The notes under the pieces: model-generated
What the model saw: the letters and a program-made list of their open reading frames with translations, nothing else
What the model was told of the DNA's origin: nothing
Database searches by the model: none
In this document: piece after piece, positions 50,155 through 63,796 of the stretch
Layout: the number at the start of each line of letters is the position of its first letter
Position numbering within the stretch: position 1 is the stretch's first letter
DNA from: an uncultured Bacteroidia bacterium
GTDB taxonomy: Bacteria; Bacteroidota; Bacteroidia; Bacteroidales; UBA932
Direction: 5' to 3'
Assembly (NCBI GenBank): GCA_902801885.1
Contig: CADCJX010000002.1
Span: 54,272-118,271 of the forward strand
DNA length: 64,000 bases
Made by a program: the position numbers and the translations under genes

Positions 50155-50155
50155 G

Positions 50156-51271: not shown

Positions 51272-51316
51272 GCTTCAATAACAGCCCCATAAGCCTCTTG
51301 GTATTATAGGACGTCA

Positions 51317-51347
51317 TTGAAATATTGCAGACAATTGTTTACTTTTG
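51317..51347 (+). promoter_or_regulatory. Promoter of the McrB-like/DUF2357 pair
   Basis: TTG at 51317-51319, a 20-bp spacer and TACTTTTG at 51340-51347. It lies in the 120-bp gap after the methyltransferase, so the restriction pair can be expressed separately. Confidence 0.65.
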
Positions 51348-51391
51348 AGTTTGGGACCTTTTGTAGTCAACAATACTTAATATATTATGCT

Positions 51392-53119
51392 ATGAGGGCA
51401 GGTTTTATTAAAGAACTGAACACGCTTTTCTCTTCTTTCCAAAAAGCGGGACACGATTATGAAAAGCATATAGGAAAAGGAGTATCTCTTGAGTCAACAA
51501 GTGGAGAAGTATTACGAAAGGATATCCCACAAATTCTTAAGGAAGAATTCCCCGCAGATACATATAAGATTAAAGGGTCTATTGGGACAGGGCGCATATC
51601 CAAATGCCCATGGGTCGCCATTATGCATAATAAAGAGACCTCATCGACAAAACGTGGCATTTATCTGGTTTTCCTTTTTTCAAAAGACTTGAGCCGCGTA
51701 TATTTGTCTCTTGCTCAAGGCGTCTCGGAAATAACGATGGCAGAAATAAACGAGAACCGTGAGACTCTGAGGGGCGAACTTAAACTCGAAAGCCCCCTTC
51801 GCCGGCATTTTAACGATCAACTGATAGATAGTGAAGAATACAAAGCCGGGGCCATCTACTCAAATGAATGGAAATGCAAAGATGAGGATTATTGTGAGGG
51901 TCTTCTATTACAATTCAAAGAGGCATACGAGAAATATATAGCGTTGAAATATGGGGAATCAGATGATGGTCTCCCGATCGATCCAGCGACAAAAGTGGAA
52001 GGTATAGAATCAGAATTCTCAATAAAAGCCATCATTGATTACATCAACGAGACGGGTCTTGTATATTCTGAAAGTCTTATCAAGCGGTTTGCTTTTTCTC
52101 TGTTGACAAAACCATTTGTCATTTTGAGCGGACTAGCGGGGTCAGGAAAAACACAGCTGGCACTGGCATTCGCTAGTGCTCTGGTGGAGGACCGCGAAAA
52201 ACAGATGTGCGTGGTTAGCGTTGGGGCCGACTGGACGAACCGCGAGCCCTTGCTGGGTTTCCCTAACGCACTGCAACAGAATCAGTATGTGAAGCCAGAG
52301 AGTGGTGTGTTAGACTTGCTTATAGAGGCTAATCGAACAGAAAATGCGGAGAAACCGTTCTTCTTGATTTTGGACGAGATGAACATGAGCTACGTGGAAA
52401 GGTATTTCGCCGATTTCCTCAGTGCAATGGAGAGTCACGAGTCTATATCGCTGTGGAAGGGCATAGTCGATGTGGAGACAATTGGCTACGTTCCGCAAAA
52501 GGTAGTACTTCCGAAGAACCTTTTTATCATTGGTACAATCAACGTAGACGAGACTACTTATATGTTCTCTCCGAAAGTGCTGGACAGGGCGAACGTGATA
52601 GAGTTCAAGATTGCGAGTGAGGAGATGGCGGGATTCTTGACCGAGATGCAGAAGGTAAACCGCAATGGTATTAACGGAAAAGCAGCAGGCATGGCGAAGA
52701 GCTTTGTGAAAGTGGCCGCCCAAATGGAGCTGGCTAAGGATGAGGAAGCGGTGACTGTACTTCAAAAATTCTTCGACGAACTCAAGGGGGTGAACGCGGA
52801 GTTTGGCTATCGCTCGGCAATGGAAATATTCCGCTTTATTTGTCAGGCGAAAGACAATGATGACACGACGACAAAATTGTCAACGGACGAAATATTGGAT
52901 GCGGCCATCATGCAGAAACTGCTCCCGAAACTACATGGAAGTAGAAAGAAATTGGTTCCTATACTTGCTAACCTATGGGATCTGTGTGATGCTGGAATCG
53001 GAATAGAGCTTGCCGAAAATGTTCCACCCAAAACAAAGTATCCTCTTACAGCAGATAAACTTCTTCGAATGTATCGTGGAGCGATAGACAATGGCTTCAC
53101 CAGTTTTGCAGAAGCGTAA
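51392..53119 (+). CDS. McrB-like AAA+ protein with DUF3578 (MrcB_N) domain
   Basis: 575 aa from the ATG at 51392; a longer in-frame reading would run through the promoter. N-terminal DUF3578 (about 1-185) with KCPWVAIMHNKETSSTKRGIYLVFLF and VYLSLAQG. AAA+ core: Walker A LSGLAGSGKTQLALAFA (about 246-262), Walker B FFLILDEMNMSYVERYF (about 323-340), the McrB-type INVDETTYMFSPKVLDRANVIEF. McrB proteins hydrolyse GTP or ATP and load on modified DNA to drive cleavage by McrC. The partner gene follows by 6 bp. Confidence 0.9.
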   Translation: MRAGFIKELNTLFSSFQKAGHDYEKHIGKGVSLESTSGEVLRKDIPQILKEEFPADTYKIKGSIGTGRISKCPWVAIMHNKETSSTKRGIYLVFLFSKDLSRVYLSLAQGVSEITMAEINENRETLRGELKLESPLRRHFNDQLIDSEEYKAGAIYSNEWKCKDEDYCEGLLLQFKEAYEKYIALKYGESDDGLPIDPATKVEGIESEFSIKAIIDYINETGLVYSESLIKRFAFSLLTKPFVILSGLAGSGKTQLALAFASALVEDREKQMCVVSVGADWTNREPLLGFPNALQQNQYVKPESGVLDLLIEANRTENAEKPFFLILDEMNMSYVERYFADFLSAMESHESISLWKGIVDVETIGYVPQKVVLPKNLFIIGTINVDETTYMFSPKVLDRANVIEFKIASEEMAGFLTEMQKVNRNGINGKAAGMAKSFVKVAAQMELAKDEEAVTVLQKFFDELKGVNAEFGYRSAMEIFRFICQAKDNDDTTTKLSTDEILDAAIMQKLLPKLHGSRKKLVPILANLWDLCDAGIGIELAENVPPKTKYPLTADKLLRMYRGAIDNGFTSFAEA

Positions 53120-53125
53120 TACGTA

Positions 53126-55375
53126 ATGCGCGTAGAGCAGTTTATCATACCTATTTGCCCTAGGGTCAAGTTGTTGGTCTATTCGGTAGGCGCCCCGCTT
53201 TTCGTGGATGAAAATGCGGCCGACTATGGCGAATCTCGTTGGCAGCTACTGGAAGGAAAAGAATATGAGTATGAGCTTGTGGATGACTCCTTAAATGAGC
53301 CTGTTGACTGGTCTCTTGAAGGCCCGGCATCACTGACCCAAAGAAACCCTCGACATAAGAACCGCGGAGTAATCACAACCGACATTTATGTCGGAACCGC
53401 ACACTTCAAGGTTAAAAAGTCGGGTATCCACGACGGGATACCTGTAGATTTCGAGGTCTTGTCCGTCAAGGCTAGTTACAGGTCAGATTACCGACATATG
53501 TTGTCGGAGATCACAAGCTACTATACGGATCTTGTGATGCAGCAGGGGGCCCCTGTCACACAGAAATTCGAAGTGGACTATGATACCCCGCAACAGACCC
53601 TTTATCAGAAGTTCGCCTTTGTGAAGAGTATCGTCGAGGATGATCAGTTCGGCGAAGCGATCCACAAGATTATATCCAATCCTGTCCGTAAATGGGCTGA
53701 AACCACGGTTGAACGTCACATTGAATCTGTAAGTAAGCTGTCTAAGAACGGCCTCCGCCAGATTGTTACCAGAACGGACCGTGTTCCATATTCCGGAGCC
53801 ATCGAAGGTCTGGACTCACTACCCCGTTACCTTAACGTATCGCATAAGACGGACAGCGTTGATACGCCGGAGAATCAGTTCGTCAAATATGTGCTTACGT
53901 CGTTCTATGGTTTCTGTAGCAGTCTTGGAACCAAAAAGAATGCAACGACTCAGCTTCGCATGGAAATTGACGCCGTCTGCAATACCTTGGCAGGCTACAT
54001 GAACGGGCTTTTCTTCAAGGATGTCAGCAATCCCTCCCAGCTAAATCTTGGAAGCCCGGTGCTGCAACGTAAGGAGGGGTACCGCGAAATTCTTCAGGCC
54101 TGGCTAATGTTTGACCTGGCGGCAAAGCTCACATGGAACGGTGGTGACGATGTCTATGAGGCCGGCAAGAAAAATGTGGCAGTGCTTTATGAATACTGGC
54201 TGTTCTTCAAGCTAATGGAATGCGTGAGCGAAGTCTTTAATGTTCCAACGGTCGAGAAAAAGTGCCTAATCAGCAAGGATGATGATGGGATCAACCTGGA
54301 ACTCCGCCAGGGCCATACGAAGATGATTCATGGCACGACGACAGCAGGGAACCGTCGTCTCAATGTTAGTTTGTATTACAACCGGACTTTCAGTCATACA
54401 GATGATATCTATTCGTCCGGTTCCTGGACAATGAACATGCGCCCTGATTATACACTATCCATTTGGCCGGGAGAGATGTCTGAAGCAGAGGCCGAGCGAA
54501 AAGACGCTATTGTTCACATCCATTTTGACGCCAAGTATCGGCTTAATAGAATCATTATCGAAGACAAGGAAATTGACCTTGATGCTGAAGAGAAGGAGCT
54601 TCAAGAAGAAAAGGAGAACAGAGAAAAGGACATCTATAAACGAGGCGACTTGCTGAAAATGCATGCTTATAAAGATGCTATCCGGCGGACTGGTGGTGCC
54701 TATGTGCTATATCCTGGAACAGAGAAGAAGATCAGAAAAGGCTTTCATGAAATAATTCCAGGTCTTGGCGCATTCTGCATTGCACCCGGGCATGAGGATG
54801 AACAGATCCCGGCTCTTAAGAGATTCCTCAGAGATGTCTTTATTCATTTCATGGATCGAAATAGCCAACGAGAAAAGGTGGCTATTGCCGAACATGATAT
54901 TTATTCAAGTGAGCCGGAGCCGTTCTATGAGATGTTCCCAGAGCCATACGGGAATTCTGTATTCGCAGACGCGGTTGCAGTTCTTGTCGGTTGTTATAAA
55001 AGTAAAGTACATTTACAATGGATACTCGAAAAGGGTAAATATAATATCCGCTTTGGAGGAGAACGCGAAGGCGCCATTGAGTTAAAGGAATCCTATTTGA
55101 GGGCTCGCTACCTCCTGCTTTACGACCCTGATGATTTCAGCGATCTCAGGATTATGAAGATCATTAAAGATAATCCAACCATTATTAACGAAAAGGCAAT
55201 GGCAGAAATGGGCTACCCAGATCCAACACCAAATCAAATGTACATGGTCTACGATGTCTCAATTGACGCCGTTGAGCCCGAACTATACAATAGGCCATGG
55301 ACAATTGAACCATTCGTTAAAGATAAAAACGGCGCGCCAATTATCGTGACCTATACCAATCTGTTTCCGGAATAG
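53126..55375 (+). CDS. DUF2357 McrC-like restriction protein
   Basis: 749 aa. N-terminal DUF2357 domain (about 90-330) with QTLYQKFAFVKSIVEDDQF and RYLNVSHKTDSVDTPENQFVKYVL. It then has a PD-(D/E)XK-type core: MRPDYTLSIWP and HIHFDAKYRLN (Asp, then D-x-K), followed by a charged helix (KEIDLDAEEKELQEEKENREKD) and a helical part KRGDLLKMHAYKDAI, as in McrC-like nucleases. A C-terminal part of about 180 residues includes YNIRFGGEREGAIELKESYLRARYLLLYD. Together with the McrB-like protein it forms a type IV-style modification-dependent restriction unit. Confidence 0.88.
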   Translation: MRVEQFIIPICPRVKLLVYSVGAPLFVDENAADYGESRWQLLEGKEYEYELVDDSLNEPVDWSLEGPASLTQRNPRHKNRGVITTDIYVGTAHFKVKKSGIHDGIPVDFEVLSVKASYRSDYRHMLSEITSYYTDLVMQQGAPVTQKFEVDYDTPQQTLYQKFAFVKSIVEDDQFGEAIHKIISNPVRKWAETTVERHIESVSKLSKNGLRQIVTRTDRVPYSGAIEGLDSLPRYLNVSHKTDSVDTPENQFVKYVLTSFYGFCSSLGTKKNATTQLRMEIDAVCNTLAGYMNGLFFKDVSNPSQLNLGSPVLQRKEGYREILQAWLMFDLAAKLTWNGGDDVYEAGKKNVAVLYEYWLFFKLMECVSEVFNVPTVEKKCLISKDDDGINLELRQGHTKMIHGTTTAGNRRLNVSLYYNRTFSHTDDIYSSGSWTMNMRPDYTLSIWPGEMSEAEAERKDAIVHIHFDAKYRLNRIIIEDKEIDLDAEEKELQEEKENREKDIYKRGDLLKMHAYKDAIRRTGGAYVLYPGTEKKIRKGFHEIIPGLGAFCIAPGHEDEQIPALKRFLRDVFIHFMDRNSQREKVAIAEHDIYSSEPEPFYEMFPEPYGNSVFADAVAVLVGCYKSKVHLQWILEKGKYNIRFGGEREGAIELKESYLRARYLLLYDPDDFSDLRIMKIIKDNPTIINEKAMAEMGYPDPTPNQMYMVYDVSIDAVEPELYNRPWTIEPFVKDKNGAPIIVTYTNLFPE

Positions 55376-55592
55376 ACGCACGTTTTCCTTCAGTAGTATA
55401 TTCCAAACACGCCTGATTATTAATTGAATCACCCGCCGGGTCGTCGTTTCCAAACGCGCTCCGGCGGGGATTTTCCATACGTTTTCTCCATTCTTTAATG
55501 ACGGCGCGGCAAATTGTCTCGTCGTCCAAGCCTTCGTCAAAGAGATTACCGACGAGGTCTATGATATGCTGCGGCAGCTGCATTCCGATCAT
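55341..55592 (-). CDS. Small hypothetical protein controlled by the Ro60/tRNA regulon box
   Basis: 83 aa from the ATG at 55592 (MIGMQLPQHIIDLVGNLFDEGLDDETICRAVIKEWRKRM); an earlier in-frame ATG at 55604 lies inside the -7 box. The N-terminal half is helical with a regular hydrophobic pattern, the C-terminal half is polar. The last 35 bp overlap the convergent DUF2357 gene. The reason to accept it is the promoter at 55602-55650, which has the same palindrome and spacing as the promoters of the Y RNA/Ro60 unit and the tRNA array. Function unknown. Confidence 0.5.
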   Translation of the reverse strand: MIGMQLPQHIIDLVGNLFDEGLDDETICRAVIKEWRKRMENPRRSAFGNDDPAGDSINNQACLEYTTEGKRASIPETDWYRSR

Positions 55593-55601
55593 TTTGAAAG
55601 G

Positions 55602-55650
55602 CAAAGGTAAGGCAAGCCTACAAGACTCTGAAATCCTTGCAAGTCTTGCA
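55602..55650 (-). promoter_or_regulatory. Regulon promoter 3 (palindrome + TTTC-N20-TACCTTTG)
   Basis: TACCTTTG -7 box at 55609-55602 (minus strand), -33 TTTC 20 bp upstream, and palindrome TGCAAGTCTTGCA at 55638-55650, exactly 28 bp from the -7 box. The same arrangement is found at 57441-57489 and 60305-60353. The predicted start is near 55596. Confidence 0.75.
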
Positions 55651-55652
55651 GG

Positions 55653-56174
55653 CTATGCCAGCATGGTCACGAGATCCCTCGAGACGGCGATTCTGTAGAC
55701 ACCGTCCCTTCCCCTGACGATAGCATACTGGTCCGCTGCGAGCCTCCCGACCTTGTCGACCAGTTTCCTCTTGATCCTGGAGACGTTGGTCTGGAGGGTC
55801 GCCCTATCATCGTCGCACAGGGCATCCACGGCGGCCTCGATCTGGTCGGGATCGTCATAGACAGTCTGCTTCCGGTAGATCTCGCAGAGTTCGTCGTAGT
55901 ACTTCCAGATATCTTCGGCTGCTATGCCGTCGACATATCTTAGAAGCAAGGTATAAAGGGTTCTTTCCACCGGATTCAGATAGATCTTCACGTCTCCGTA
56001 ATCCGGCAGAGAAAGGATGCCGTTCCTCTCCAGGGAGATCCTCCCCGGTCCGTTCCTCTTCACGAGGGTATCGATCTGGTCATCGTTTAGTCCCCGCGCC
56101 CGAAGGTCCTTCAGTAGGTTTCTGACCGCGAGGACAAGAGCCTTGGTGTCGTCATCAAGCACTAACTTGTCCAT
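55653..56174 (-). CDS. Hypothetical protein downstream of the tRNA array (possible winged-helix protein)
   Basis: 173 aa (MDKLVLDDDTKALVLAVRNLLKDLRARGLNDDQIDTLV). The middle has ISLERNGILSLPDYGDVKIYLNPVERTLYTLLLRYVDGI followed by a helical stretch and LQTNVSRIKRKLVDKVG near the end, which resembles the recognition helix and wing of a response-regulator-type winged helix, but this is weak. It lies 264 bp downstream of the last tRNA in the same orientation and ends 3 bp before the regulon palindrome at 55638-55650. It is a candidate regulator of the three boxes (inference). Confidence 0.7.
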   Translation of the reverse strand: MDKLVLDDDTKALVLAVRNLLKDLRARGLNDDQIDTLVKRNGPGRISLERNGILSLPDYGDVKIYLNPVERTLYTLLLRYVDGIAAEDIWKYYDELCEIYRKQTVYDDPDQIEAAVDALCDDDRATLQTNVSRIKRKLVDKVGRLAADQYAIVRGRDGVYRIAVSRDLVTMLA

Positions 56175-56425: not shown

Positions 56426-56438
56426 CAAATAAAACTTG

Positions 56439-56511
56439 AGCCTCCAACAGGAATCGAACCTGCAACCCTCTGCTTACAAGGCAGATGCTCTACCAGTTGA
56501 GCTAAAGAGGC
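56439..56511 (-). tRNA. tRNA-Thr(TGT)
   Basis: Anticodon stem TCTGC/GCAGA with loop CTTGTAA (TGT); D arm TAGCTCAACTGGTAGAGC; T loop TTCGATT. CCA not encoded. Last tRNA of the array. Confidence 0.93.
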
Positions 56512-56516
56512 GTTTG

Positions 56517-56589
56517 AGCTCAGAGCCGGATTCGGACCGGCGAATACCGGTTTTGCAGACCGGCGCGTTAACCGCTTCGCCACCTGAGC
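56517..56589 (-). tRNA. tRNA-Cys(GCA)
   Basis: Anticodon stem CCGGT/ACCGG with loop CTGCAAA (GCA); acceptor GCTCAGG/TCTGAGC; T loop TCCGAAT instead of TTCGAAT. CCA not encoded. Confidence 0.92.
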
Positions 56590-56594
56590 GTTTG

Positions 56595-56665
56595 CTGGGG
56601 CAGAGAGATTCGAACTCCCATCGGCGGTTTTGGAGACCGCTATGCTGCCATTGCACCATGCCTCA
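56595..56665 (-). tRNA. tRNA-Trp(CCA)
   Basis: Anticodon stem GCGGT/ACCGC with loop CTCCAAA (CCA anticodon); acceptor TGAGGCA/TGCCCCA with one A-C mismatch; short D arm (TGCAATGGCAGCA). 3' CCA not encoded. Confidence 0.9.
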
Positions 56666-56672
56666 ATAATTG

Positions 56673-56760
56673 CGGAAGGTGTGAGATTCGAACTCACGGA
56701 ACCCTTTCAAGTTCGTCGGTTTTCTGGACCGGTGCCTTAAACCACCTCGGCCAACCTTCC
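56673..56760 (-). tRNA. tRNA-Leu(CAG)
   Basis: Acceptor GGAAGGT/ACCTTCC, anticodon stem CCGGT with loop CCAGAAA (CAG), long variable arm, T arm GTGAG-TTCGAAT-CTCAC. CCA not encoded. Confidence 0.92.
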
Positions 56761-56765
56761 GTTCT

Positions 56766-56843
56766 TGGTCGGGATGGCGCGATTCGAACGCGCGGTCTCG
56801 GCATCCCAAATGCCGCACCTTGGACCAACTGGGCTACATCCCG
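56766..56843 (-). tRNA. tRNA-Pro(TGG)
   Basis: Acceptor CGGGATG/CATCCCG, anticodon loop TTTGGGA (TGG), T loop TTCGAAT; discriminator A followed by an encoded CCA. Confidence 0.93.
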
Positions 56844-56857
56844 ATAGCTTGTTTTCG

Positions 56858-56946
56858 CGGAAGCAGAAAGATTCGAACTTTCGGAACCCCATGAGGAGTT
56901 CAGCACCTTAGCAGGGTGCCGCCTTAGACCTCTCGGCCATACTTCC
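56858..56946 (-). tRNA. tRNA-Ser(GCT), array copy
   Basis: Acceptor GGAAGTA/TGCTTCC, anticodon stem GCACC/GGTGC with loop CTGCTAA (GCT), long variable arm. It has the same anticodon as the tRNA-Ser at 31129 but a different body. CCA not encoded. Confidence 0.93.
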
Positions 56947-56949
56947 GAT

Positions 56950-57024
56950 TGGCGGGAATAGAAGGGCTCGAACCTACGACCCGATGGTTAACAGCCATCC
57001 GCTCTGCCACTGAGCTATATTCCC
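56950..57024 (-). tRNA. tRNA-Asn(GTT)
   Basis: Acceptor GGGAATA/TATTCCC, anticodon stem GATGG/CCATC with loop CTGTTAA (GTT), T loop TTCGAGC; discriminator G and encoded CCA. Confidence 0.93.
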
Positions 57025-57029
57025 GTTTG

Positions 57030-57104
57030 GGTGAATGGAGGGGTTCGAACCCTCGGCCTCCTGATCCACAATCAGGCGCTCTTGCCAACTGAGCTACAAC
57101 CACC
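57030..57104 (-). tRNA. tRNA-His(GTG)
   Basis: Extra 5' G (G-1) opposite discriminator C, as in tRNA-His; anticodon stem CCTGA/TCAGG with loop TTGTGGA (GTG). CCA not encoded. Confidence 0.93.
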
Positions 57105-57110
57105 ATGTTG

Positions 57111-57183
57111 CGGAGCCTCGCGGAATTGAACCACGTTCTATGGATTTTCAGTCCACCGCATACACCACGTCTGCCAAAGCTCC
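57111..57183 (-). tRNA. tRNA-Phe(GAA) with unusual D arm
   Basis: Anticodon loop CTGAAAA (GAA), acceptor GGAGCTT/AGGCTCC, T loop TTCAATT. The D arm (TTGGCAGACGTGGTGTATGC) resembles a leucine-type tRNA, which is odd for Phe; identity by anticodon only. Confidence 0.8.
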
Positions 57184-57186
57184 GGT

Positions 57187-57264
57187 TGGTCACGCCGACG
57201 GGATTCGAACCCGTAAATCTTCACCGTGAAAGGGTGAGGTCCTAGCCAGTTAGACGACAGCGTG
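57187..57264 (-). tRNA. tRNA-Glu(TTC)
   Basis: Acceptor CACGCTG/CGGCGTG, anticodon stem TCACC/GGTGA with loop CTTTCAC (TTC), D arm GTCTAACTGGCTAGGAC; discriminator A and encoded CCA. Confidence 0.92.
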
Positions 57265-57272
57265 ATTCTGTG

Positions 57273-57345
57273 TGGACGTTACAGGGTTTGAACCTGTGAC
57301 CTTCGGCATATCAGACCGATGCTCTACCAGCTGAGCTAAGCGTCC
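57273..57345 (-). tRNA. tRNA-Ile(GAT)
   Basis: Acceptor GGACGCT/AACGTCC, anticodon stem TCGGT/GCCGA with loop CTGATAT (GAT), D arm TAGCTCAGCTGGTAGAGC. CCA not encoded. Confidence 0.92.
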
Positions 57346-57349
57346 GTCT

Positions 57350-57423
57350 TGGTACTCCCGGGAGGATTCGAACCTCCATCACTGGTTTCGTAGACCACCA
57401 TCCTTCCTTTGAACGACAGGAGT
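57350..57423 (-). tRNA. tRNA-Arg(ACG), first of the twelve-tRNA unit
   Basis: Acceptor ACTCCTG/CGGGAGT, anticodon loop CTACGAA (ACG), T arm GGAGG-TTCGAAT-CCTCC; encoded CCA. Its 5' end lies about 12 nt downstream of the predicted start from the promoter at 57441. Confidence 0.92.
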
Positions 57424-57440
57424 ATACCTGGATTTCACGG

Positions 57441-57489
57441 CAAAGGTAGCCACCGGGTTCAAGACCATGAAATCTCTGCAAGTCTTGCA
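57441..57489 (-). promoter_or_regulatory. Regulon promoter 2, drives the twelve-tRNA array
   Basis: TACCTTTG -7 box at 57448-57441 (minus strand), TTTC 20 bp upstream, palindrome TGCAAGTCTTGCA at 57477-57489, 28 bp from the -7 box. Flanking GAAATC is shared with the two other copies. Confidence 0.8.
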
Positions 57490-57526
57490 AGGTTCTTACT
57501 ATCCCTTGACTTCGGCAACCGCCTTG

Positions 57527-57599
57527 TTGCGGGAACCAGGATCGAACTGGTGGCCTCGGGGTTATGACTCCCACGCTCTTCCAACTGAGCTATCCCGCA
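57527..57599 (-). tRNA. tRNA-Met(CAT), end of the Ro60 unit
   Basis: Acceptor TGCGGGA/TCCCGCA, D arm TAGCTCAGTTGGAAGAGC, anticodon loop GTCATAA (CAT) on a stem with one weak pair; T loop TTCGATC. CCA not encoded. It follows Y RNA 7 by 7 nt and lies upstream of regulon promoter 2, so it belongs to the Ro60 transcript. Confidence 0.88.
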
Positions 57600-57606
57600 A
57601 TGAGAA

Positions 57607-57719
57607 AACAGGAGCGACAGGCGGTTTCGGCAGGAGGGCGCGGGTCCCGAAGGGCGATTTCCTCCTGGTGGTACCAATTACCTATAGAGCGAAGTAACCG
57701 ATTCCTACGGCATCCTGTT
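57607..57719 (-). ncRNA. Predicted Y RNA 7 (no tRNA module)
   Basis: 113 nt. Terminal stem AACAGGA/TCCTGTT (7 perfect pairs), 5' box ATGCCGTAGG and 3' box CGCCTGTCGC as in the other Y RNAs, second helix CGGTT/AACCG. The middle is GC-rich (AGGAGG...CCTCCT) and lacks T- and D-arm motifs. Confidence 0.65.
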
Positions 57720-57727
57720 ATCGTAAT

Positions 57728-57861
57728 GAGCAAAAGCGACAATCGGAGACAGACGCAGGGACGTTCTATATACTCCCTACTTCCGCCGATATTAAAAAGT
57801 GTGGAGCCGTCGGCGGCGACGGCAAGTGAACGAAGGATCTGTCTCCTACGGCATTCTGCTC
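57728..57861 (-). ncRNA. Predicted Y RNA 6 (no clear tRNA module)
   Basis: 134 nt, starting 6 nt after the Ro60 stop codon. Terminal stem GAGCA/TGCTC, 5' box ATGCCGTAGG and 3' box CGATTGTCGC in an internal loop, then a perfect 9-bp helix GGAGACAGA/TCTGTCTCC. Inner hairpin GCCGTCG/CGACGGC. Confidence 0.68.
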
Positions 57862-57866
57862 AGCTG

Positions 57867-59405
57867 TCAAAGAACAATCTTCCGAATCTCGGAAAGGGCA
57901 TCCTCTCCGCGGTCGATGGCGTTCATCACGTCGAATACCTTTTCGCTCCATCCGGCGATAAGATAGACGTCAGGTTCCACGAGGTTCAGCGGGGACTGTC
58001 CGTAACCGGCAAGGTCGAAGAGATAGAGCTTCGCCTCCGGATTCTCCGCCTTGTACTTGTGCCAGTAATCGTTGATGGCTTTTTCGTAGTTAAACCATCC
58101 GCGACGGTGCCCGCTGTCCCACATCTGGCAATCGGTGAAGATCATCACCTTGTCCATGCGGACCTTGTTGGCGATGAGCCACTCGATAACCTTGTAACCG
58201 TTTGTGGAATATCCGACCTCTCCTTCGCGGCGGTGCATCTCGAGCGTATTCGCGAGGATGGAGTCCTGGGGCAGGTTCACCACCTTCCAGGTGTCGCCGA
58301 ACATTCCGCTTACCACGGAAGCGCACTTGCTCTTCAGGAGCATCGAGAGCAGGATTCCGATATCGAAGTTCTGTACGGAGCTCCTATCCGATACAGGGCG
58401 CTGCATGGAGCCGGAGACATCCGCAGCCACGAGGACGTTGGTGTCGGCGTCGAAACCTTCCATGTTGGCGACGGAAGCCTTCACGGCCGCTTCCAGAGCG
58501 GTCAGGACCTGGGAAGTATAAAGAGACTGGACACCCTTCATCTCCCTGTAGGCGGACAGGAACCGGAACGGAAGCTGCTTGGACTTCGCCACCTGGTCCG
58601 GATCGGCGAGACGGATGCAGAGACGGTTGACGTGTCCGGCCGAGACATCAGCCTGCAGGATGTTCCTGAGGTTGCGGAGAAGTGCCATGTAACCAAGCTT
58701 CCCGGAGTCCAGGAGTTCCTCCCAGAGGGCCTTGATGGCTGCCTTCTTCGCCTCCGGAGTCTCGAACTGCTGCTGCCCGATGGCAGAGAGCTGGGTCTCC
58801 CAGGTATAAGGAGTTTTGAGTGCATCTCCGACAATCTTGTCGAAGATCTCCTGCTGGGCGACATCCTTCGCCTTGGGGTGTACCAGGAACAGCGCATCCT
58901 TCAACTTGACCTCGGCATCCTTGCGGTCATACTTGGCAAACTGGTATTCGTCGAAGCGGTTGAAGGCTTCCTTCAGGCCGTTCTGGATCTGACGGGAAAG
59001 CTTGCCGAGTTTCTTGACGCCGGGAGCGGGATTGCGCCACTGATAGCACATCAGAAGTTCGCTGATCTCGTCCGCGCGAAGAACGGTCTTGCCGACCGCC
59101 TTGGAGACAATGTCATCACCGCTATGCACCTTGGCCAGTTCCACCAGCAAAAGCAGCGGAATGCTTCGGAGATTCATTACGGTGCGGGTGTAAACCGCCA
59201 GCTGCGCGACGAACATCGGGTCAACCTTCCCGACGAGCGTGGAAATCCTCTCCACGAATTCCTTGGGGGATTCGTAGAACTTCCCCGGCAGCGCAGAGGT
59301 GACGGCAGCTGTGTAGAGCTCCATTTCTGGAGTCATCCGGAAGGCGCGTGCGCCTTCATGGTTGAGAACCTTGTTCTCTTCCTTGAGGATTTCGTTGTAC
59401 TTCAT
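57867..59405 (-). CDS. rsr: Ro60-like TROVE domain RNA-binding protein (Rsr)
   Basis: 512 aa, normal length for bacterial Ro. Residues about 10-315 form the TROVE HEAT-repeat ring (EFVERISTLVGKVDPMFVAQLAVYTRTVMNLRSIPLLLLVELAK; LKDALFLVHPKAKDVAQQEIFDKIV; GYMALLRNLRNIL). Residues about 320-505 form a vWA domain with a full MIDAS: DVSGS (329-333), the Thr/Asp in IFTDCQMWDS. Ro binds misfolded RNAs in its ring and a Y RNA on its outer surface, which controls access and tethers nucleases such as PNPase. It sits inside an array of seven predicted Y RNAs on the same strand. RtcB, often found with bacterial Ro, is not in the window. Confidence 0.95.
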   Translation of the reverse strand: MKYNEILKEENKVLNHEGARAFRMTPEMELYTAAVTSALPGKFYESPKEFVERISTLVGKVDPMFVAQLAVYTRTVMNLRSIPLLLLVELAKVHSGDDIVSKAVGKTVLRADEISELLMCYQWRNPAPGVKKLGKLSRQIQNGLKEAFNRFDEYQFAKYDRKDAEVKLKDALFLVHPKAKDVAQQEIFDKIVGDALKTPYTWETQLSAIGQQQFETPEAKKAAIKALWEELLDSGKLGYMALLRNLRNILQADVSAGHVNRLCIRLADPDQVAKSKQLPFRFLSAYREMKGVQSLYTSQVLTALEAAVKASVANMEGFDADTNVLVAADVSGSMQRPVSDRSSVQNFDIGILLSMLLKSKCASVVSGMFGDTWKVVNLPQDSILANTLEMHRREGEVGYSTNGYKVIEWLIANKVRMDKVMIFTDCQMWDSGHRRGWFNYEKAINDYWHKYKAENPEAKLYLFDLAGYGQSPLNLVEPDVYLIAGWSEKVFDVMNAIDRGEDALSEIRKIVL

Positions 59406-59423
59406 AATGATATTGTATTAAAA

Positions 59424-59534
59424 ACGGTGCAACAGTCGCAAAGAGGCGTGAGTCAAAGGTCTCACCTCGCATACTCGGTCTGATGGATCATCATCCCGGT
59501 AACCTTCGATGAATCTCTTTACTACGGCAACCGT
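59424..59534 (-). ncRNA. Predicted Y RNA 5, directly upstream of Ro60
   Basis: 111 nt. Terminal stem ACGGT/ACCGT followed by TTTTT, 5' box TTGCCGTAG, 3' box CGACTGTTGC, second helix AAAGAG/CTCTTT, inner hairpin GTGAG/CTCAC. No tRNA-like T loop. The U run may end part of the transcripts; Ro60 starts 15 nt later. Confidence 0.7.
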
Positions 59535-59550
59535 TTGTTTATTTCAAATT

Positions 59551-59680
59551 AGCCGGGTAACAATCGAAAGGACCTTTTTGCCAGCTAAGCTATCAGCCTT
59601 GCGGCTGAACGGGAGTTGAACCCGCGTACCAACATTAAAAGTGTTGTGCTTTCGAAGGAATTCCTTTCTACGACACCGGC
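59551..59680 (-). ncRNA. Predicted Y RNA 4 with permuted tRNA module (split in the D loop)
   Basis: 130 nt. Terminal stem GCCGG/CCGGC, 5' box GGTGTCGTAG, 3' box CGATTGTTAC. Module order: D-stem 3' strand AAGC, intact anticodon arm CAACA-CTTTTAA-TGTTG (TTT), T arm GCGGG-TTCAACT-CCCGT, acceptor TCAGCC-GCAA-GGCTGA (6 perfect pairs closed by a GNRA tetraloop), then D-stem 5' strand GCTT. The 5' end directly follows the CCA of tRNA-Lys. Confidence 0.8.
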
Positions 59681-59755
59681 TGGTGGACCCTGCGGGATTC
59701 GAACCCACGCCCCCCTGATTAAAAGTCAGGTGCACTACCGCTGTGCTAAAAGTCC
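59681..59755 (-). tRNA. tRNA-Lys(TTT) with encoded CCA
   Basis: Acceptor GGACTTT/AGGGTCC, anticodon stem CCTGA/TCAGG with loop CTTTTAA (TTT), T loop TTCGAAT, discriminator A and CCA. The next base is the 5' end of Y RNA 4. It shares its acceptor 3' strand with the tRNA-Met at 59888. Confidence 0.93.
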
Positions 59756-59760
59756 GAAAA

Positions 59761-59887
59761 GGCCAGGCAATTTGCGGAAAGACTTCAATCATATGCTCTA
59801 CCAAATCTGAGCTATCCGGTTGCCCGGAACGTGACTTGAACACGTGACCCTATGTTTTCGAAGTATGTCTTCCCTACGGCACCAGCC
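59761..59887 (-). ncRNA. Predicted Y RNA 3 with permuted tRNA module (split in the anticodon loop)
   Basis: 127 nt. Terminal stem GGCTGG/CCTGGCC, 5' box GGTGCCGTAG, 3' box CGCAAATTGCC, then TTTT. Module: helix strand CTTC, anticodon 3' strand CATA, T arm ACGTG-TTCAAGT-CACGT, acceptor TCCGG-GCAA-CCGGA (GNRA-capped), TA, intact D arm GCTCAGATTTGGTAGAGC, anticodon 5' strand TATG, helix strand GAAG. The 5' end GGCTGGTGCCG resembles animal Y RNA starts (GGCUGGUCCGA). It begins at the base after the CCA of tRNA-Met. Confidence 0.85.
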
Positions 59888-59964
59888 TGGTGGACCCTGA
59901 CGGATTTGAACCGCCGACCCTCCGGTTATGAGCCGGGTGCTCTGACCTGCTGAGCTAAAGGTCC
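59888..59964 (-). tRNA. tRNA-Met(CAT) with encoded CCA
   Basis: Acceptor GGACCTT/AGGGTCC, D arm TAGCTCAGCAGGTCAGAGC, anticodon stem CCCGG with loop CTCATAA (CAT), T loop TTCAAAT, discriminator A and CCA. Its 3' end abuts Y RNA 3. Elongator Met or, if modified, Ile2. Confidence 0.93.
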
Positions 59965-59970
59965 GTGAAA

Positions 59971-60135
59971 GCAAGGCAACAAACGAAAAGGCCTGAAACG
60001 TGCTCTACCAGGCTGAGCTACTGTGATGCTTCGACACCTCCTTCATAAACGAGGGCGAGGTTGGTCACAGGCCGGACTTGAACCGGCGACACCGGGTTTA
60101 TCAAACCGAAGGAATCCCTTTCTACGGCACTTGCT
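59971..60135 (-). ncRNA. Predicted Y RNA 2 with permuted tRNA module and extended acceptor cap
   Basis: 165 nt. Terminal stem AGCAAG/CTTGCT, 5' box AGTGCCGTAG, 3' box CGTTTGTTGCC. T arm GCCGG-TTCAAGT-CCGGC, acceptor CTGTGA/TCACAG, intact D arm GCTCAGCCTGGTAGAGC, split near the anticodon (AAAC/GTTT). In place of the tetraloop the acceptor is joined by about 38 nt with an inner ACCTC/GAGGT hairpin. Confidence 0.78.
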
Positions 60136-60143
60136 ATGTTTCA

Positions 60144-60275
60144 GTGAGGCAACAGGCGGGACAGTTTCTGAACTACACCGGCCCTGCGGCCGGTGACCGG
60201 TTTCGAACCGGTACCTTTAGATCCTCAATCTAATGTTCTATCCGTTGCGAAGTAATCCGTCCCTACGGCACTCAC
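60144..60275 (-). ncRNA. Predicted Y RNA 1 with permuted tRNA module (split in the D loop)
   Basis: 132 nt. Terminal stem GTGAG/CTCAC, 5' box AGTGCCGTAG, 3' box GCCTGTTGCC, second helix GGGAC/GTCCC. Module: D-stem 3' strand GAAC, intact anticodon arm TTAGA-TTGAGGA-TCTAA (GAG), T arm ACCGG-TTCGAAA-CCGGT, acceptor CACCGGCC-GCAG-GGCCGGTG (8 perfect pairs), D-stem 5' strand GTTC. First RNA of the unit, about 24 nt after the predicted transcription start. Confidence 0.82.
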
Positions 60276-60304
60276 TTTTTCTTTCAATGATCTGTTCCGG
60301 GGGG

Positions 60305-60353
60305 CAAAGGTAAAGCAGTTTGTTCCCGCCGCGAAATCTCTGCAAGTCTTGCA
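60305..60353 (-). promoter_or_regulatory. Regulon promoter 1, drives the Y RNA/Ro60 unit
   Basis: TACCTTTG -7 box at 60312-60305 (minus strand), TTTC 20 bp upstream, palindrome TGCAAGTCTTGCA at 60341-60353, 28 bp from the -7 box. The start would be near 60299. Confidence 0.8.
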
Positions 60354-60941: not shown

Positions 60942-62153
60942 TTATCTGTGTCGTCTATACGGGCGTACATGCAGCTCCTTCGCTTTCTTCAGACAACGGC
61001 GCGCCCAAAGCCAGTCGTCCTCTTTGGGATCCTTTCCCCAGCCGGTTCCCGGAGAGCTGCCGCCACCACAGGACTGGGACAGCGCCGTTGCCCCGTCGAC
61101 ATACTCGCAGAAAAGGAGCATGGCGGTATGCAGGACGTGCTCTCGGCTGGTGCTGGAGTTGTTTTCCGGAACCTCCGCTTCCTTCTGGAAGATCTCATAG
61201 ATCGCCTCTGGAATGTCGAGGGAATACCTCTGCCCCTCGACCGTGATGTCCTGGTGGACCATAGCCGGGACAGGCTTCGGCGTCGGGGTGGGACGTTTCG
61301 TCACATCCGCTGCCGTAGGACGGGGTTTTTCCGTCTTTTCAGCCGGGACATTCACTTCCTTGACAGGATGCAGTTTTGCCCACGTCTCTTGGATCCTGGA
61401 GGGTGTGAGGCTGCGGGTATGCCCCAGCTCTGAGGACTTATATTTGATATATCCTATATTCAGGGAATAGCCATGGATCTTGCCTTCTTCGTCGAGCCGG
61501 AAGACTACTTTATAGCCCTTTCCCTCAAGTTTCTGCTTATAGGCATCCCAGTCAAAGGTATCCATTTCCTTCAGGGCTGCGATGCAGTCCTGGGTGACCA
61601 GCACTGCCCTTTCCTTGTGGATTTCCTCGGGCTGGACCCATCCCCGGCGTTCGTTGATCACGCAGGCTGCTTGCTTTGCCCGCTCGCTGACGTAGTGGGA
61701 GTCGATGACGTTCCCGTCCATGTCAATCCGGTTGGCAATGATGTGCAGGTGCAGGATTCCGCTGTCGCTATCGTGGTGGAGCATGGCGACGTACTGGGTG
61801 TTCTTAAGATTCGTGGATTTGGAACTCTCCCGCCCGGTCCGTCCGGAATAGTCCACAGCATCGAACTCCCGGACGAAATCATCCGCAAGTTCCCTCCATT
61901 CCTCCAGTGTCCATCCGACCGTCTCCTCTCTGGCGGGTGATACCTCGATCCGGAGGGAGGTGCATTTCAGGTGCTTGGTCCGGTTCAGTTTCTCCCGGAA
62001 CTGTTCCTGAAGGAGCTTCATCCTCGACCAGATCGCGGACGCGGAGAGGTTCTCCGGGAGGCAATTGACCTTGACGATTTCGGACAAGTCTTTTTCGGTG
62101 GAGTAACGGACGGTGATGCTCCCGTGTGTTACGGCTGCTGCTTTTGCGACCAT
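60942..62153 (-). CDS. Relaxase / mobilisation nuclease (MobA/VirD2-like)
   Basis: 403 aa. The N-terminal relaxase domain (about 1-210) contains YSTEKDLSEIVKVNCLPENL, RTKHLKCTSLRIEVSPAREE, and the metal-binding motif MLHHDSDSGILHLHIIANRID with the HxH pair at about 135-137. A linker rich in Pro/Lys/Thr (about 265-300) precedes a C-terminal helical part. It nicks oriT and leads the single strand into a recipient through a conjugation machine supplied by another element. The partner MobC-like gene ends 3 bp upstream. Confidence 0.9.
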   Translation of the reverse strand: MVAKAAAVTHGSITVRYSTEKDLSEIVKVNCLPENLSASAIWSRMKLLQEQFREKLNRTKHLKCTSLRIEVSPAREETVGWTLEEWRELADDFVREFDAVDYSGRTGRESSKSTNLKNTQYVAMLHHDSDSGILHLHIIANRIDMDGNVIDSHYVSERAKQAACVINERRGWVQPEEIHKERAVLVTQDCIAALKEMDTFDWDAYKQKLEGKGYKVVFRLDEEGKIHGYSLNIGYIKYKSSELGHTRSLTPSRIQETWAKLHPVKEVNVPAEKTEKPRPTAADVTKRPTPTPKPVPAMVHQDITVEGQRYSLDIPEAIYEIFQKEAEVPENNSSTSREHVLHTAMLLFCEYVDGATALSQSCGGGSSPGTGWGKDPKEDDWLWARRCLKKAKELHVRPYRRHR

Positions 62154-62156
62154 ATT

Positions 62157-62525
62157 CTATTCCTTCATTTTGTCGATGATACTGTCCCAATAAGCAAGGA
62201 TCTTGTTGACGGAATCCAGCCACGCCTGCCGGAATTTCTCATTCTTGAAGTACAGCTTCCTCTTCTCCGGCTCCTTGCTGTTGACCTGACTGAAGAGACG
62301 GACCACGTCTCCCCTGGCATCGGTCAAGCTGGTCAGGGCCTCGATCTCCCGCTCCGTCAGATGGTACTTTGGCTGGTGGCCGAGTGTACATTCCCGGGTG
62401 TATTTGCTTACGGTCTTGCCACATTCATCAGCACGTTTCTTCACGGCGTCATACTCTTCCTGAGTGACGCGGGCGTCCAAGTGCAGTATGCGTTTGGACA
62501 CGGCTTTGGTCTCTTTCTGTTTCAT
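62157..62525 (-). CDS. MobC-like relaxosome accessory protein
   Basis: 122 aa from the ATG at 62525 (MKQKETKAVSKRILHLDARVTQEEYDAVKKRADECGKTVSKYTRECTLG), a ribbon-helix-helix-like start as in MobC proteins. The frame stays open upstream to 62765, but that part overlaps the DnaC-like gene and the likely oriT. The C-terminal half is helical (RLFSQVNSKEPEKRKLYFKNEKFRQAWLDSVNKILAYWDSI). It helps the relaxase bind or melt oriT. Confidence 0.82.
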   Translation of the reverse strand: MKQKETKAVSKRILHLDARVTQEEYDAVKKRADECGKTVSKYTRECTLGHQPKYHLTEREIEALTSLTDARGDVVRLFSQVNSKEPEKRKLYFKNEKFRQAWLDSVNKILAYWDSIIDKMKE

Positions 62526-62655
62526 GTTCAGTTCTCTTTTAAGTCTACCCAATGCGAGCCGGCGAGCGTTCAAGATGCCACGTTGGACAAGTCGCACCGC
62601 GAGTTTGTCCGACATTGGCACATCTAGCAATACGGAGGAGAAAAAATACTCCTCC
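62526..62655 (-). other. Candidate oriT region
   Basis: 130 bp without a supported gene, directly upstream of mobC and the relaxase. It holds an inverted repeat GGACAA-TCGC-ACC-GCGA-TTGTCC (62585-62610) and a second hairpin GGAGGAG/CTCCTCC around AAAAAATA (62633-62655). This position and structure fit a nick region, but the nick site cannot be read. Confidence 0.4.
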
Positions 62656-63339
62656 TCACTCCGCAGGTTTGCCAATCTGTTCGCGATAAGAATCTCCCAG
62701 GAAAACAATCCTTTCACACATCTCCTCGAACCGGTCGAGGACGCGTTTTCCATACCATGCCACAATCCGGTCGTCAGAGAGGTTCGTTGATATGATGGTT
62801 ACCCGCTGCTTCTCGTATCTCTCATAGATGAGTTCAGGCAGGGGCGTATAGTCCACTCCGTAATCCTTGCACTTGGCAGGTTCTGTTCCCAGATCGTCCA
62901 GGAAGAGGTAGTCTGCCTTCTTGAATTCGTCATAATAAGACGGCTGCTTGTCGAGCTTGGCTTTGAATTGGTCATAGACCATCAAGGCGGTACATTTATA
63001 GATGCCGCTGGCGCCGTACCGGTACAAGGAACACAGTGCGTTCATGAGCGAGGACTTCCCTGATCCCAGGGTTCCCTGAAGAAGAAGGCTGCTCTTCAAC
63101 CTGGGGCCCGTCATCCACTCGGCGGCCGCCGCAATGTTTTCGGCGACCTCCGTTCCGGCTATTTCACGGAATTCACAGCCGCGGTCTTCGACCACGTCTT
63201 GATAAAGCTCCATCAAAACAGCTTGAATAACTTCTTTATCTTTCCCTATCAGCTTTGGAGGAAGCTTGGGGATATGCTTAGTGCCTGATGTATTCTGCCG
63301 GATTGCAGACATCAAGTGCTGGATTGCTGTTGGTTCCAT
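62656..63339 (-). CDS. DnaC/IstB-like ATP-binding protein
   Basis: 227 aa. Walker A LLLQGTLGSGKSSLMNAL (about 85-102), Walker B ADYLFLDDLGTEPAK (about 150-164), sensor region VTIISTNLSDDRIVAWYGKRVLDRFEEMCERI. This is the DnaC-type AAA+ helicase loader pattern. It probably loads the host DnaB helicase at the element origin. Its first 62 bp overlap the 3' end of the winged-helix gene in another frame. Confidence 0.88.
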   Translation of the reverse strand: MEPTAIQHLMSAIRQNTSGTKHIPKLPPKLIGKDKEVIQAVLMELYQDVVEDRGCEFREIAGTEVAENIAAAAEWMTGPRLKSSLLLQGTLGSGKSSLMNALCSLYRYGASGIYKCTALMVYDQFKAKLDKQPSYYDEFKKADYLFLDDLGTEPAKCKDYGVDYTPLPELIYERYEKQRVTIISTNLSDDRIVAWYGKRVLDRFEEMCERIVFLGDSYREQIGKPAE

Positions 63340-63796
63340 AACTGTTTTCTCTTTTGACCCGAGATGGGTCGTCTTTGTGTTTAGGATTATCTATAGCGCT
63401 ATGCACTATTTTATTGGTTGAAGTTTTTTCACCGGCATCGGTGAAAATATTGCTCTGTTCCTGGTGAAATTTTATCACCGACATCGGTGAAATATTTTCA
63501 CCATCCTTGTTGAAATAATCGCGCTTGACTTCCTCGCTGACCGTGTATTCGTATGTCCGGTATTTCGGGTGCTTCTCCTTTGAGCGGACAATCAGACCCT
63601 GGTCCATCAATTTTTTGATGGCCGTGCAGACCGTCCTTTTGGAGACATTAGCGTAATCCGCAAGAGATTGCTCGCTCTTATACATGGTCATCCCTGTTCG
63701 GCTATAAGAGAAAACCAGCCCAAAAATGACCAGCTCACACTTATTCAAGTTGAGCTTTCTCCCTAACATCCATTCATAGACGACGAAGTCAGACAT
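63278..63796 (-). CDS. Winged-helix replication/partition-type DNA-binding protein
   Basis: 172 aa. The N-terminal 90 residues form a winged helix (VVYEWMLGRKLNLNKCELVIFGLVFSYS, SLADYANVSKRTVCTAIKKLMDQGLIVRSKEKHPKYRTYEYTVS), similar to the front part of DnaD-like and phage replication proteins. The rest is polar and poorly ordered. It is paired with a DnaC-like loader, which fits a replication-initiation pair. The gene contains two palindromes at 63426-63490 that may be binding sites for its own product. Confidence 0.78.
   Translation of the reverse strand: MSDFVVYEWMLGRKLNLNKCELVIFGLVFSYSRTGMTMYKSEQSLADYANVSKRTVCTAIKKLMDQGLIVRSKEKHPKYRTYEYTVSEEVKRDYFNKDGENISPMSVIKFHQEQSNIFTDAGEKTSTNKIVHSAIDNPKHKDDPSRVKRENSYGTNSNPALDVCNPAEYIRH
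63426..63490 (-). promoter_or_regulatory. Paired palindromes TCACCG-nCAT-CGGTGA inside the winged-helix gene
   Basis: TTTTCACCG-GCAT-CGGTGAAAA (63426-63447) and TCACCG-ACAT-CGGTGA (63475-63490), plus half sites GGTGAAA near 63463 and TTTTCACC near 63495. They may be iterons or operators. Confidence 0.5.

Follow-up and report, generated by a model that had tools for sequence, protein, structure and literature searches.

A Predicted Ro60 Operon With Seven Y RNAs

The window analyzed here is a stretch of 64,000 nucleotides (nt) on contig CADCJX010000002.1 of an uncultured bacterium of the order Bacteroidales, whose genome (assembly GCA_902801885.1, termed G000) comprises 2.46 Mb on 31 contigs and is 99% complete. 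On its minus strand lies a gene for Ro60 (Rsr), a protein with TROVE and vWA domains, surrounded by seven elements which, judging from conserved boxes and paired stems, are very probably Y RNAs. All seven share one predicted Ro60-binding handle and differ in their distal domain, which in two of them may be read as a complete tRNA that is opened within its D-loop. A palindrome in front of the first element recurs, with the same spacing to a promoter-like motif, in front of a neighboring array of divergent extra tRNA genes. The locus is best read, with reasonable probability, as a Ro60 ribonucleoprotein operon with seven RNAs, switched together with the divergent tRNAs and directed at damaged or misprocessed tRNA.

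A first-pass annotation, made from the letters alone, had proposed seven Y RNA-like segments around this gene. The observation of the seven segments is confirmed, with refined ends, and the interpretation as Y RNAs is supported; their link to Ro60 and their different architecture both hold. The gene itself matches Pfam TROVE (90.2 bits) and vWA_Ro60 (34.8 bits) as well as the solved TROVE proteins 9l5y and 9kop (E 3.5e-22), as its assignment to Ro60 had implied. In minus-strand order, the features of the putative operon are:

60341–60353, minus strand: operator TGCAAGACTTGCA of the Y/Ro60 operon, with TACCTTTG 28 nt on, at 60305–60312
60142–60277, minus strand: Y1, whose distal domain can be read as a complete cloverleaf with circular permutation at the D-loop
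60217–60233, minus strand: Y1 anticodon arm, loop TTGAGGA, Leu-GAG-like
59969–60136, minus strand: Y2, YrlA-type (type A score 18.9; YrlA 35.6 bits), with T-arm, long acceptor hairpin and intact D-arm
59888–59964, minus strand: tRNA-Met (CAT), between Y2 and Y3, 4 nt past Y2
59760–59888, minus strand: Y3, YrlA-type (type A score 20.9; YrlA 40.6 bits, E 7.5e-7)
59681–59755, minus strand: tRNA-Lys (TTT), between Y3 and Y4, 4 nt past Y3
59550–59682, minus strand: Y4, putative D-loop-permuted tRNA mimic, though ambiguous (type B score 24.9, control maximum 18.25; also 18.1 as type A, the YrlA type)
59630–59646, minus strand: Y4 anticodon arm, loop CTTTTAA, Lys-UUU-like
59422–59536, minus strand: Y5, without recognized tRNA-like domain, 16 nt ahead of the ro60 start codon
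57867–59405, minus strand: ro60 gene (TROVE-vWA, Rsr), 512 aa, with Pfam and PDB matches
57729–57860, minus strand: Y6, without recognized tRNA-like domain, 6 nt past the ro60 stop codon
57607–57719, minus strand: Y7, without recognized tRNA-like domain
57526–57599, minus strand: second tRNA-Met (CAT), 7 nt past Y7, last gene of the putative operon
57501–57521, minus strand: truncated 5′ box TGCCGAAG, left over from an eighth Y RNA and sharing 86% identity with the Y5 box across 21 nt; the descriptor used below calls no element there

Each element runs in the order stem 1, TGYCGTA, stem 2, (C)WTCG, variable domain, stem 2′, a 9-nt strand resembling GNNTGTYRC, and stem 1′. The spacings of boxes, stems and 3′ strand are identical across all seven, and the variable domain measures 59–114 nt from WTCG to the returning strand. 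The sequences of stems 1 and 2 are private to each copy and yet paired, with 13 to 15 of 15 stem positions paired per element; the inner helix of Y7 is the poorest (6/8 pairs). This layout extends the initial description in several respects. The 5′ box is present as described, as TGCCGTA in six elements and TGTCGTA in Y4, and a second constant box, WTCG, stands at fixed spacing behind it. The 3′ box takes the form of the 9-nt strand (GCAAATTGC in Y3) and fits without gaps between two helices, the inner of which had been overlooked. The self-complementary terminal stem is copy-specific as claimed, with a length of 5–8 rather than 5–7 bp, and the alternation with tRNA-Met and tRNA-Lys is likewise real, the operon also including the second tRNA-Met just beyond the interval first delimited.

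Conservation of the Elements Beside Ro60 Genes

The comparison covers 86 Ro60 loci, obtained after de-duplication from the best 80 of 404 confirmed Ro60 relatives, the window and five others (L017–L020 and L025 were dropped as copies of L029, L030, L054, L088, and L076); L048 and L049 come from one genome, and the loci are not all separate species. All relatives with informative taxon names are Bacteroidota, and the signature is seen in Bacteroidales, Pontibacter, Spirosoma, Emticicia, Flavobacterium, Pedobacter, and metagenome-assembled genomes (MAGs) labeled Chitinophagales. The closest Ro60 relatives among the best 80 are encoded in ruminant MAGs (reindeer and roe deer, with 83 and 74% protein identity). 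Ro60 carriers are scarce nearby, with 6/299 genomes of the family and 6/393 of the order, G000 being counted in both.

Throughout the 2.46-Mb genome, the motif TGYCGTAG-N11-WTCG has 12 matches, seven of them on one strand of these 2.7 kb, as opposed to one match for the reversed control pattern. A descriptor whose letters were trained on 125 elements from other loci, without the window and L028–L031, and whose layout was fixed after the window had been inspected, recovered exactly the seven elements (42.2–54.7 bits; next best score in the window 17.5), and a single score above 15, namely 15.7, was obtained in resampled control loci. The first-pass annotation had made its proposal depend on finding the boxes next to the TROVE genes of relatives, and the full descriptor detects them at 30 bits or more in 82/86 loci (238 elements) and at 19 bits or more in 83/86 (266 elements), the 30-bit counts being the firm ones since a cut-off of 19 bits is too lenient for places selected beforehand. 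Among the five strict 5′-motif places elsewhere in the genome, three were scored and two reach 19.8 and 20.9 bits (L010 and L022); a 29-bit element in L099 overlaps two good tRNAs and is probably a false match.

Pairing was also assessed blind to the 3′ box, in a search that asked only for two complementary strands at fixed spacing. Here, 102/181 candidates (56%) showed at least 14/15 pairs, compared to about 5% in swapped controls, and the 3′ box emerged unasked: of those 102, 94 begin the 3′ strand with G, 99 have T as its sixth and 98 have C as its ninth nucleotide. Across 250 distinct element sets, 3355/3750 pairs are formed and each of the 15 stem positions beats all 200 shuffles, a comparison biased toward pairing by the fact that the elements were chosen partly by pairing.

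The covariance-model check with Rfam YrlA (RF02553), suggested at the outset, gave window matches that all fall below the gathering threshold. At this threshold of 69 bits, no YrlA was detected in the window nor in the 22 of the 80 relatives examined; the signature thus finds Y RNAs in Bacteroidota, a phylum including gut commensals, where the Rfam model at threshold finds none in 23 loci. The YrlA scores of Y4 (20.3) and Y1 (17.6) are at chance level, and low YrlA scores mean little, as a 22.4-bit match spans two ordinary tRNAs. Beyond tRNAs and these sub-threshold matches, the Rfam search of the minus strand returned weak fragments of mascRNA-menRNA (17.1 bits) and tmRNA (11.9 bits), and no T-box or other known leader.

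Distal Domains and tRNA Mimicry

Two arrangements of tRNA-like parts were recognized in the variable domain. The YrlA-type module (type A), consisting of a T-arm, a capped acceptor and an intact D-arm, was found in 68/266 elements and in 0/785 controls at that score; in the window, only Y2 and Y3 carry it. The second arrangement (type B), present in 11/266 elements and in 0/785 controls at scores of at least 19, lies outside the YrlA consensus, and the remaining 187/266 elements were left unassigned. In type B, the 3′ part of the D-loop comes first and is followed by the 3′ strand of the D-stem, the full anticodon arm, the variable loop, the T-arm, the capped acceptor, positions 8–9 and the 5′ strand of the D-stem, with the Ro60 handle continuing out of the D-loop. 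Such an RNA can be read as an entire tRNA whose D-loop has been opened. Of the window elements, Y1 and Y4 belong to this type, whereas Y5–Y7 fit neither type. An acceptor stem joining the 5′ and 3′ ends, as in a tRNA, is absent from both Y1 and Y4, in which the acceptor is a capped internal hairpin and the ends lie in the D-loop.

The Y1 type was aligned from eight RNAs, that of the window and seven from relatives (Prevotellaceae, Prevotella or Bacteroidales), in which 98.5% of cells are paired. Changes on both sides affect 12/33 pairs, including four of the five anticodon-stem pairs; the shuffle mean is 3.7 and 0/500 shuffles are as high, with the caveat that related sequences may exceed shuffles without structure. 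When the strands are slid against each other, pairing falls to 36–47% and two-sided changes to 0 to 2. In the anticodon loop, U33, G36, and G37 are constant in all eight RNAs while positions 34 and 35 vary; G36-G37 is a recognition feature of the tRNA methylase TrmD. Anticodon loops of the Y4 relatives read CTCTTAA (L030) and CTCATAA (L028), giving UUU, CUU, and CAU as the three Y4-type anticodons. One further RNA (L029:5709) passes the permuted-tRNA rule with a loop lacking U33 and was kept out of the alignment, and L028:5850, which failed the rule, entered the wider alignment by orthology. A widened search for the Y1 type with CTTCGYARYGGNTRGAAC gave matches in 4/393 genomes including G000; the other three places hold no element of at least 15 bits and are regarded as chance matches. 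When the families to which two of those genomes belong were searched, Ro60 was found in 0/38 and 3/71 genomes, all three being contigs already in the locus set.

The Y1- and Y4-type RNAs are possibly, though this is offered tentatively, complete permuted tRNA mimics that present a real anticodon loop while tethered to Ro60, and would then act as decoys or sensors for enzymes cutting or modifying the anticodon loop, in a regulon that also supplies divergent replacement tRNAs.

It could be argued that the elements are merely tRNA genes decaying within a tRNA array, with functionless boxes left over from duplication. They do lie inside such an array, the anticodon loop of Y4 resembles that of the neighboring tRNA-Lys, and two elements give sub-threshold tRNA matches of about 25 bits. 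Decay, however, would not keep two helices paired through many changes, and the excess of two-sided changes in the Y1 class speaks against it as well. Furthermore, Y5–Y7 retain the handle without recognized tRNA parts, and the module adjoins Ro60 even in loci without any tRNA call. This reading, contradicted by the stem pairing, was rejected as having next to no probability.

ARAGORN calls six Y RNAs of other loci tRNAs for Leu, Arg or Lys (L040:3950, L045:5267, L047:5677, L064:7649, L085:8037, and L094:7810). These are likely misannotated tRNA-mimic Y RNAs, and annotation may therefore hide this RNA class. In L051 (5652–5822), a Y RNA has an enlarged domain ahead of the T-arm, possibly a further variant of the permuted mimic.

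Copy Number, Strand and Joints

One to a few Y RNAs per Ro locus had been assumed to be usual, making seven appear exceptional. Seven is indeed the highest count at 30 bits, where the loci with 0 to 7 elements number 4, 17, 21, 15, 15, 11, 2, and 1, respectively, and the window alone has seven; at 19 bits, L059 equals it. Several copies are nevertheless ordinary, with a median of 3 per locus at cut-offs of 19–30 bits and of 2 at 35–40 bits, and the seven Y RNAs are the extreme of a range and no new state. Comparable arrays exist in L084 (Chitinophagaceae) and L099 (Emticicia), which carry five elements of at least 30 bits each among many tRNAs.

Strand and spacing were tabulated for 85 loci (L021 excluded). 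Elements lie on the Ro60 strand in 259/263 cases and on the opposite strand in four. Gaps from a Y element to a following tRNA (n = 30) measure 4–5 nt in 16 and 1–12 nt in 25 cases, and those from a tRNA to a following Y element (n = 27) measure −2 to 4 nt in 13. Interleaving with tRNAs had likewise been taken as unusual; tight joints occur in 15/85 loci, so that the window shares them with 14 others. The last upstream Y element ends 15–43 nt before the ro60 start in 35/48 loci (16 nt in the window), and a Y element may also follow the ro60 stop, with a gap of 6 nt in the window.

The strand bias, the tight gaps and the spacing between Y elements and ro60 together suggest a single transcript Y1-Y2-tMet-Y3-tLys-Y4-Y5-ro60-Y6-Y7-tMet, which would start at the promoter at about 60305–60312 and in which the tRNA joints would be cutting sites. 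Cleavage at the Y/tRNA joints, presumably by tRNA-processing enzymes, is fairly probable, and Y/Y and Y/mRNA joints would be cut by other nucleases.

The position of Y5 and Y6, 16 nt before the ro60 start and 6 nt past its stop, together with the narrow upstream gaps of most loci, would also suit cis-acting leader or spacer structures that serve processing or Ro60 feedback on its own mRNA and never become free RNAs. An improbable explanation on the whole, it has to accommodate copies that number up to seven and flank the gene on either side, and a distal tRNA mimicry for which a leader has no need; moreover, the YrlA RNAs, the relatives known from bacteria, occur as free RNAs. A feedback by way of Y5 could exist in addition.

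A Palindromic Operator Shared With a tRNA Array

Three promoters of the window carry the same palindrome:

57477–57489, minus strand: operator before the 12-tRNA array, same palindrome; TACCTTTG at 57441–57448
56438–57423, minus strand: array of 12 tRNA genes, divergent extra copies
55653–56174, minus strand: gene for a probable winged-helix protein of 173 aa that closes the tRNA array; candidate regulator
55638–55650, minus strand: operator before an 87-aa open reading frame (ORF; 55341–55604), same palindrome; TACCTTTG at 55602–55609

The exact palindrome TGCAAGTCTTGCA, the only form searched genome-wide (forms with central G or C were left out), occurs three times in G000, both strands taken together, and always in this locus. 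Each copy stands 28 nt before TACCTTTG, which fits the Bacteroidota −7 element TAnnTTTG. The three promoters are directed at the Y/Ro60 operon, at the 12-tRNA array including the 173-aa gene, and at the 87-aa ORF. The same unit of palindrome, 28 nt and TAnnTTTG precedes both the Y/Ro60 operon and the tRNAs in L029 and L030, and L028 has one such unit about 0.5 kb before the first tRNA and Y RNA. The central base is G in the three L030 sites with 28-nt spacing and A in the window, L028, and L029. Over the 0.93 Mb of L028–L107, 15 palindrome copies were observed against about 0.06 expected by simple base counting. In L030 (6518–7171), a third operator unit precedes a stand-alone protein with a vWA-like DESGSM motif, read by eye, which is perhaps a third regulon member.

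The 173-aa protein has copies of 71–84% identity in L029 and L030 and aligns with the C-terminal part of larger proteins. Its family occurs in 6/83 loci, five of them with the palindrome, compared to 3/77 other loci with the palindrome (Fisher p 1e-5; loci not all independent). On account of the operator conservation and this co-occurrence, the family is the likely regulator acting through the palindrome. Structure prediction of the 173-aa protein alone is of low confidence (mean pLDDT 49); in longer relatives, a good predicted fold is confined to roughly the final 130 residues, model confidence of the N-terminal part being mostly under 50. The best structure matches of the C-terminal part are the DNA-binding domains of KdpE, ToxR, and OmpR, at E 0.13 and above, so that a fold of this kind is suggestive only.

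Alternatively, the Y RNAs may be real and the tRNA array and operator incidental, a mobile array having come to rest here by chance. Mobilization genes (relaxase, NikA-like) just upstream and the lack of a tRNA array at most Ro60 loci would be in keeping with this. Chance placement is nonetheless unlikely, given that the same palindrome, at the same distance of 28 nt, lies ahead of the operon and of the tRNAs alike in the window, L029, and L030, that the exact palindrome is found nowhere else in G000, and that tRNA arrays also lie beside Ro60/Y elements in L062, L083, L084, L099, and L102. Shared regulation of the Y/Ro60 operon and the tRNA array is, from the arrangement of these sites, quite probable.

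The locus holds 15 tRNAs and the rest of the genome 41. Thirteen of the 15 share an anticodon with a tRNA elsewhere, at only 48–75% sequence identity, and the locus tRNAs look like acquired spare copies. Ser (AGA) and Ile (GAT) are found only in the locus, although the assembly may lack Ile (GAT) copies located in rRNA operons. The tRNA-Ser (56672–56760) has an unusual A34 anticodon, AGA, without counterpart among the 41 other tRNAs.

Proposed Function

In the mechanism proposed here, each Ro60 would hold one Y RNA by a handle formed from two helices around TGYCGTA and GNNTGTYRC, so that a single protein could be equipped with several exchangeable adaptors: tRNA mimics of the YrlA type, permuted mimics that are complete and include the anticodon arm, and forms without tRNA likeness. 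The palindrome in front of both the Ro60/Y operon and the spare-tRNA array would serve to switch them as one, the most likely regulator being the probable winged-helix protein whose gene closes the array. The regulon would answer damaged or misprocessed tRNA, a purpose for which the odds are about even.

The neighbors of Ro60 elsewhere provide context for this purpose. Across 83 loci, with each gene cluster named from one or two tested members, a WYL-type regulator is found near Ro60 in 39, RtcB in 36 and RlaP in 16 loci; a Hen1-type protein is found in six (four Pontibacter, Cesiribacter, and Sporocytophaga), and an RNA ligase lies beside the tRNA arrays of L083, L099, and L102 (PF09414 was tested and matched in L099 only). 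In Bacteroidota, Ro60 and Y RNAs often accompany RNA repair; in the window they accompany spare tRNAs instead.

A number of results weigh against the proposed mechanism or parts of it. Three of the 86 Ro60 loci (L026, L027, and L075) have no element even at 19 bits, and 70/85 loci have no tight tRNA joint. The permuted D-stem (GTTC/GAAC) is invariant across the eight Y1-type RNAs, its sole variation being the different yet complementary GCTT/AAGC of the Y4 type, and although the lowest-energy fold of Y1 contains the D-stem, that of Y4 pairs a neighboring stretch in its place. The 87-aa ORF behind the third operator has no NCBIfam match. Two L029 copies and one L030 copy of the palindrome lack a −7 element at 28 nt. 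The palindrome of L041 and L044, which is flanked by the first Y RNA and by a gene for a longer homologue of the 173-aa protein, is 35–36 nt from a −7-like element. No homologue with an N-terminal extension was found in G000, and the 173-aa protein, consisting of the DNA-binding part only, has no N-terminal part in which a CARF sensor domain could be placed; its connection with CARF regulators is weak, as PADLOC matches the C-terminal part alone, at E 4.4e-4. Finally, RtcB was not found in G000, while 9/14 control genomes gave matches, and repair by the RtcB ligase would therefore be unavailable here.

Relation to Known Systems

The window elements resemble the YrlA RNAs (RF02553) of Salmonella, Mycobacterium and others in their position beside Ro60/Rsr and in their two-helix lower stem with internal loop, and the tRNA-like module of Y2 and Y3 shows the same permuted order of T-arm, capped acceptor and D-arm. 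They differ in their score (40.6 bits at best) and in the internal loop, TGYCGTA/GNNTGTYRC; moreover, Y1 and Y4 keep the anticodon arm and are opened in the D-loop, and Y5–Y7 are without tRNA module. In algae and archaea, circularly permuted tRNA genes exist, in which tRNA parts likewise stand in rotated order; unlike these, Y1 and Y4 give no sign that their halves rejoin into a tRNA, and their open ends carry the Ro60 handle. As in vertebrate Y RNAs, where the Ro60 site is a lower stem whose internal loop is bulged (PMC4726728), the handle combines a lower stem with an internal loop, whereas the distal parts are unrelated and no sequence homology is claimed.

The rsr-yrlBA-rtcBA operon of Salmonella is induced by damaged tRNA (PMC7790460). 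It shares with the window a Ro60 gene, more than one Y RNA and a dedicated regulator (a candidate here), and RtcB near Ro60 matches the Bacteroidota loci with RtcB mentioned above; it differs from the window, which has seven Y RNAs and a tRNA array under the same operator and yielded no RtcB. The candidate regulator of the window is without sensor domain and, unlike RtcR, not of the sigma54 type. In Anabaena, an extra operon of 26 tRNAs and rtcB are under one repressor (PMC10272220). This trn operon and the Mycobacterium avium array (PMC12803027) resemble the window in gathering extra tRNAs in one cluster, and a search of both articles for Ro60, TROVE and Y RNA gave no match; the window array, in contrast, is joined with Ro60 and Y RNAs.

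Among the literature matches listed, no title concerns Bacteroidota Y RNA arrays or D-loop-permuted tRNA mimics, and parts of the findings may have been described previously. The expectation of an unusually elaborate Ro system is borne out as far as elaboration goes, and the locus is best placed within the known Ro60/Y RNA system, as a variant particular to its lineage. Unexpected, and absent from the first-pass annotation, are two of its parts: tRNA mimics that are complete but permuted, and an operator that the Y/Ro60 operon and the spare tRNA array have in common. The analysis thus presents one Ro60 gene with up to seven predicted adaptor RNAs, and a putative D-loop-opened tRNA mimic retaining its anticodon arm. 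The shared operator makes the purpose of bacterial Ro60 testable, through the signal that would induce Ro60, Y RNAs, and extra tRNAs together.

Genomic Surroundings

Mobilization- and replication-type genes (MobA-type relaxase, NikA-like, IstB/DnaC-like, and DnaD-like) occupy 60942–63796 on the minus strand, just upstream, and the locus may therefore sit on or beside a mobile element; a plasmid search limited to close matches gave no close copies of the locus. On the other side, a defense-type cluster on the plus strand (49069–55375) converges on the Ro60/Y locus, with a PD-(D/E)XK nuclease (DruK-like, 52 bits), a cytosine methylase (DruM, 424 bits), a McrB-like ATPase and a DUF2357/PDDEXK_7 protein among its members.

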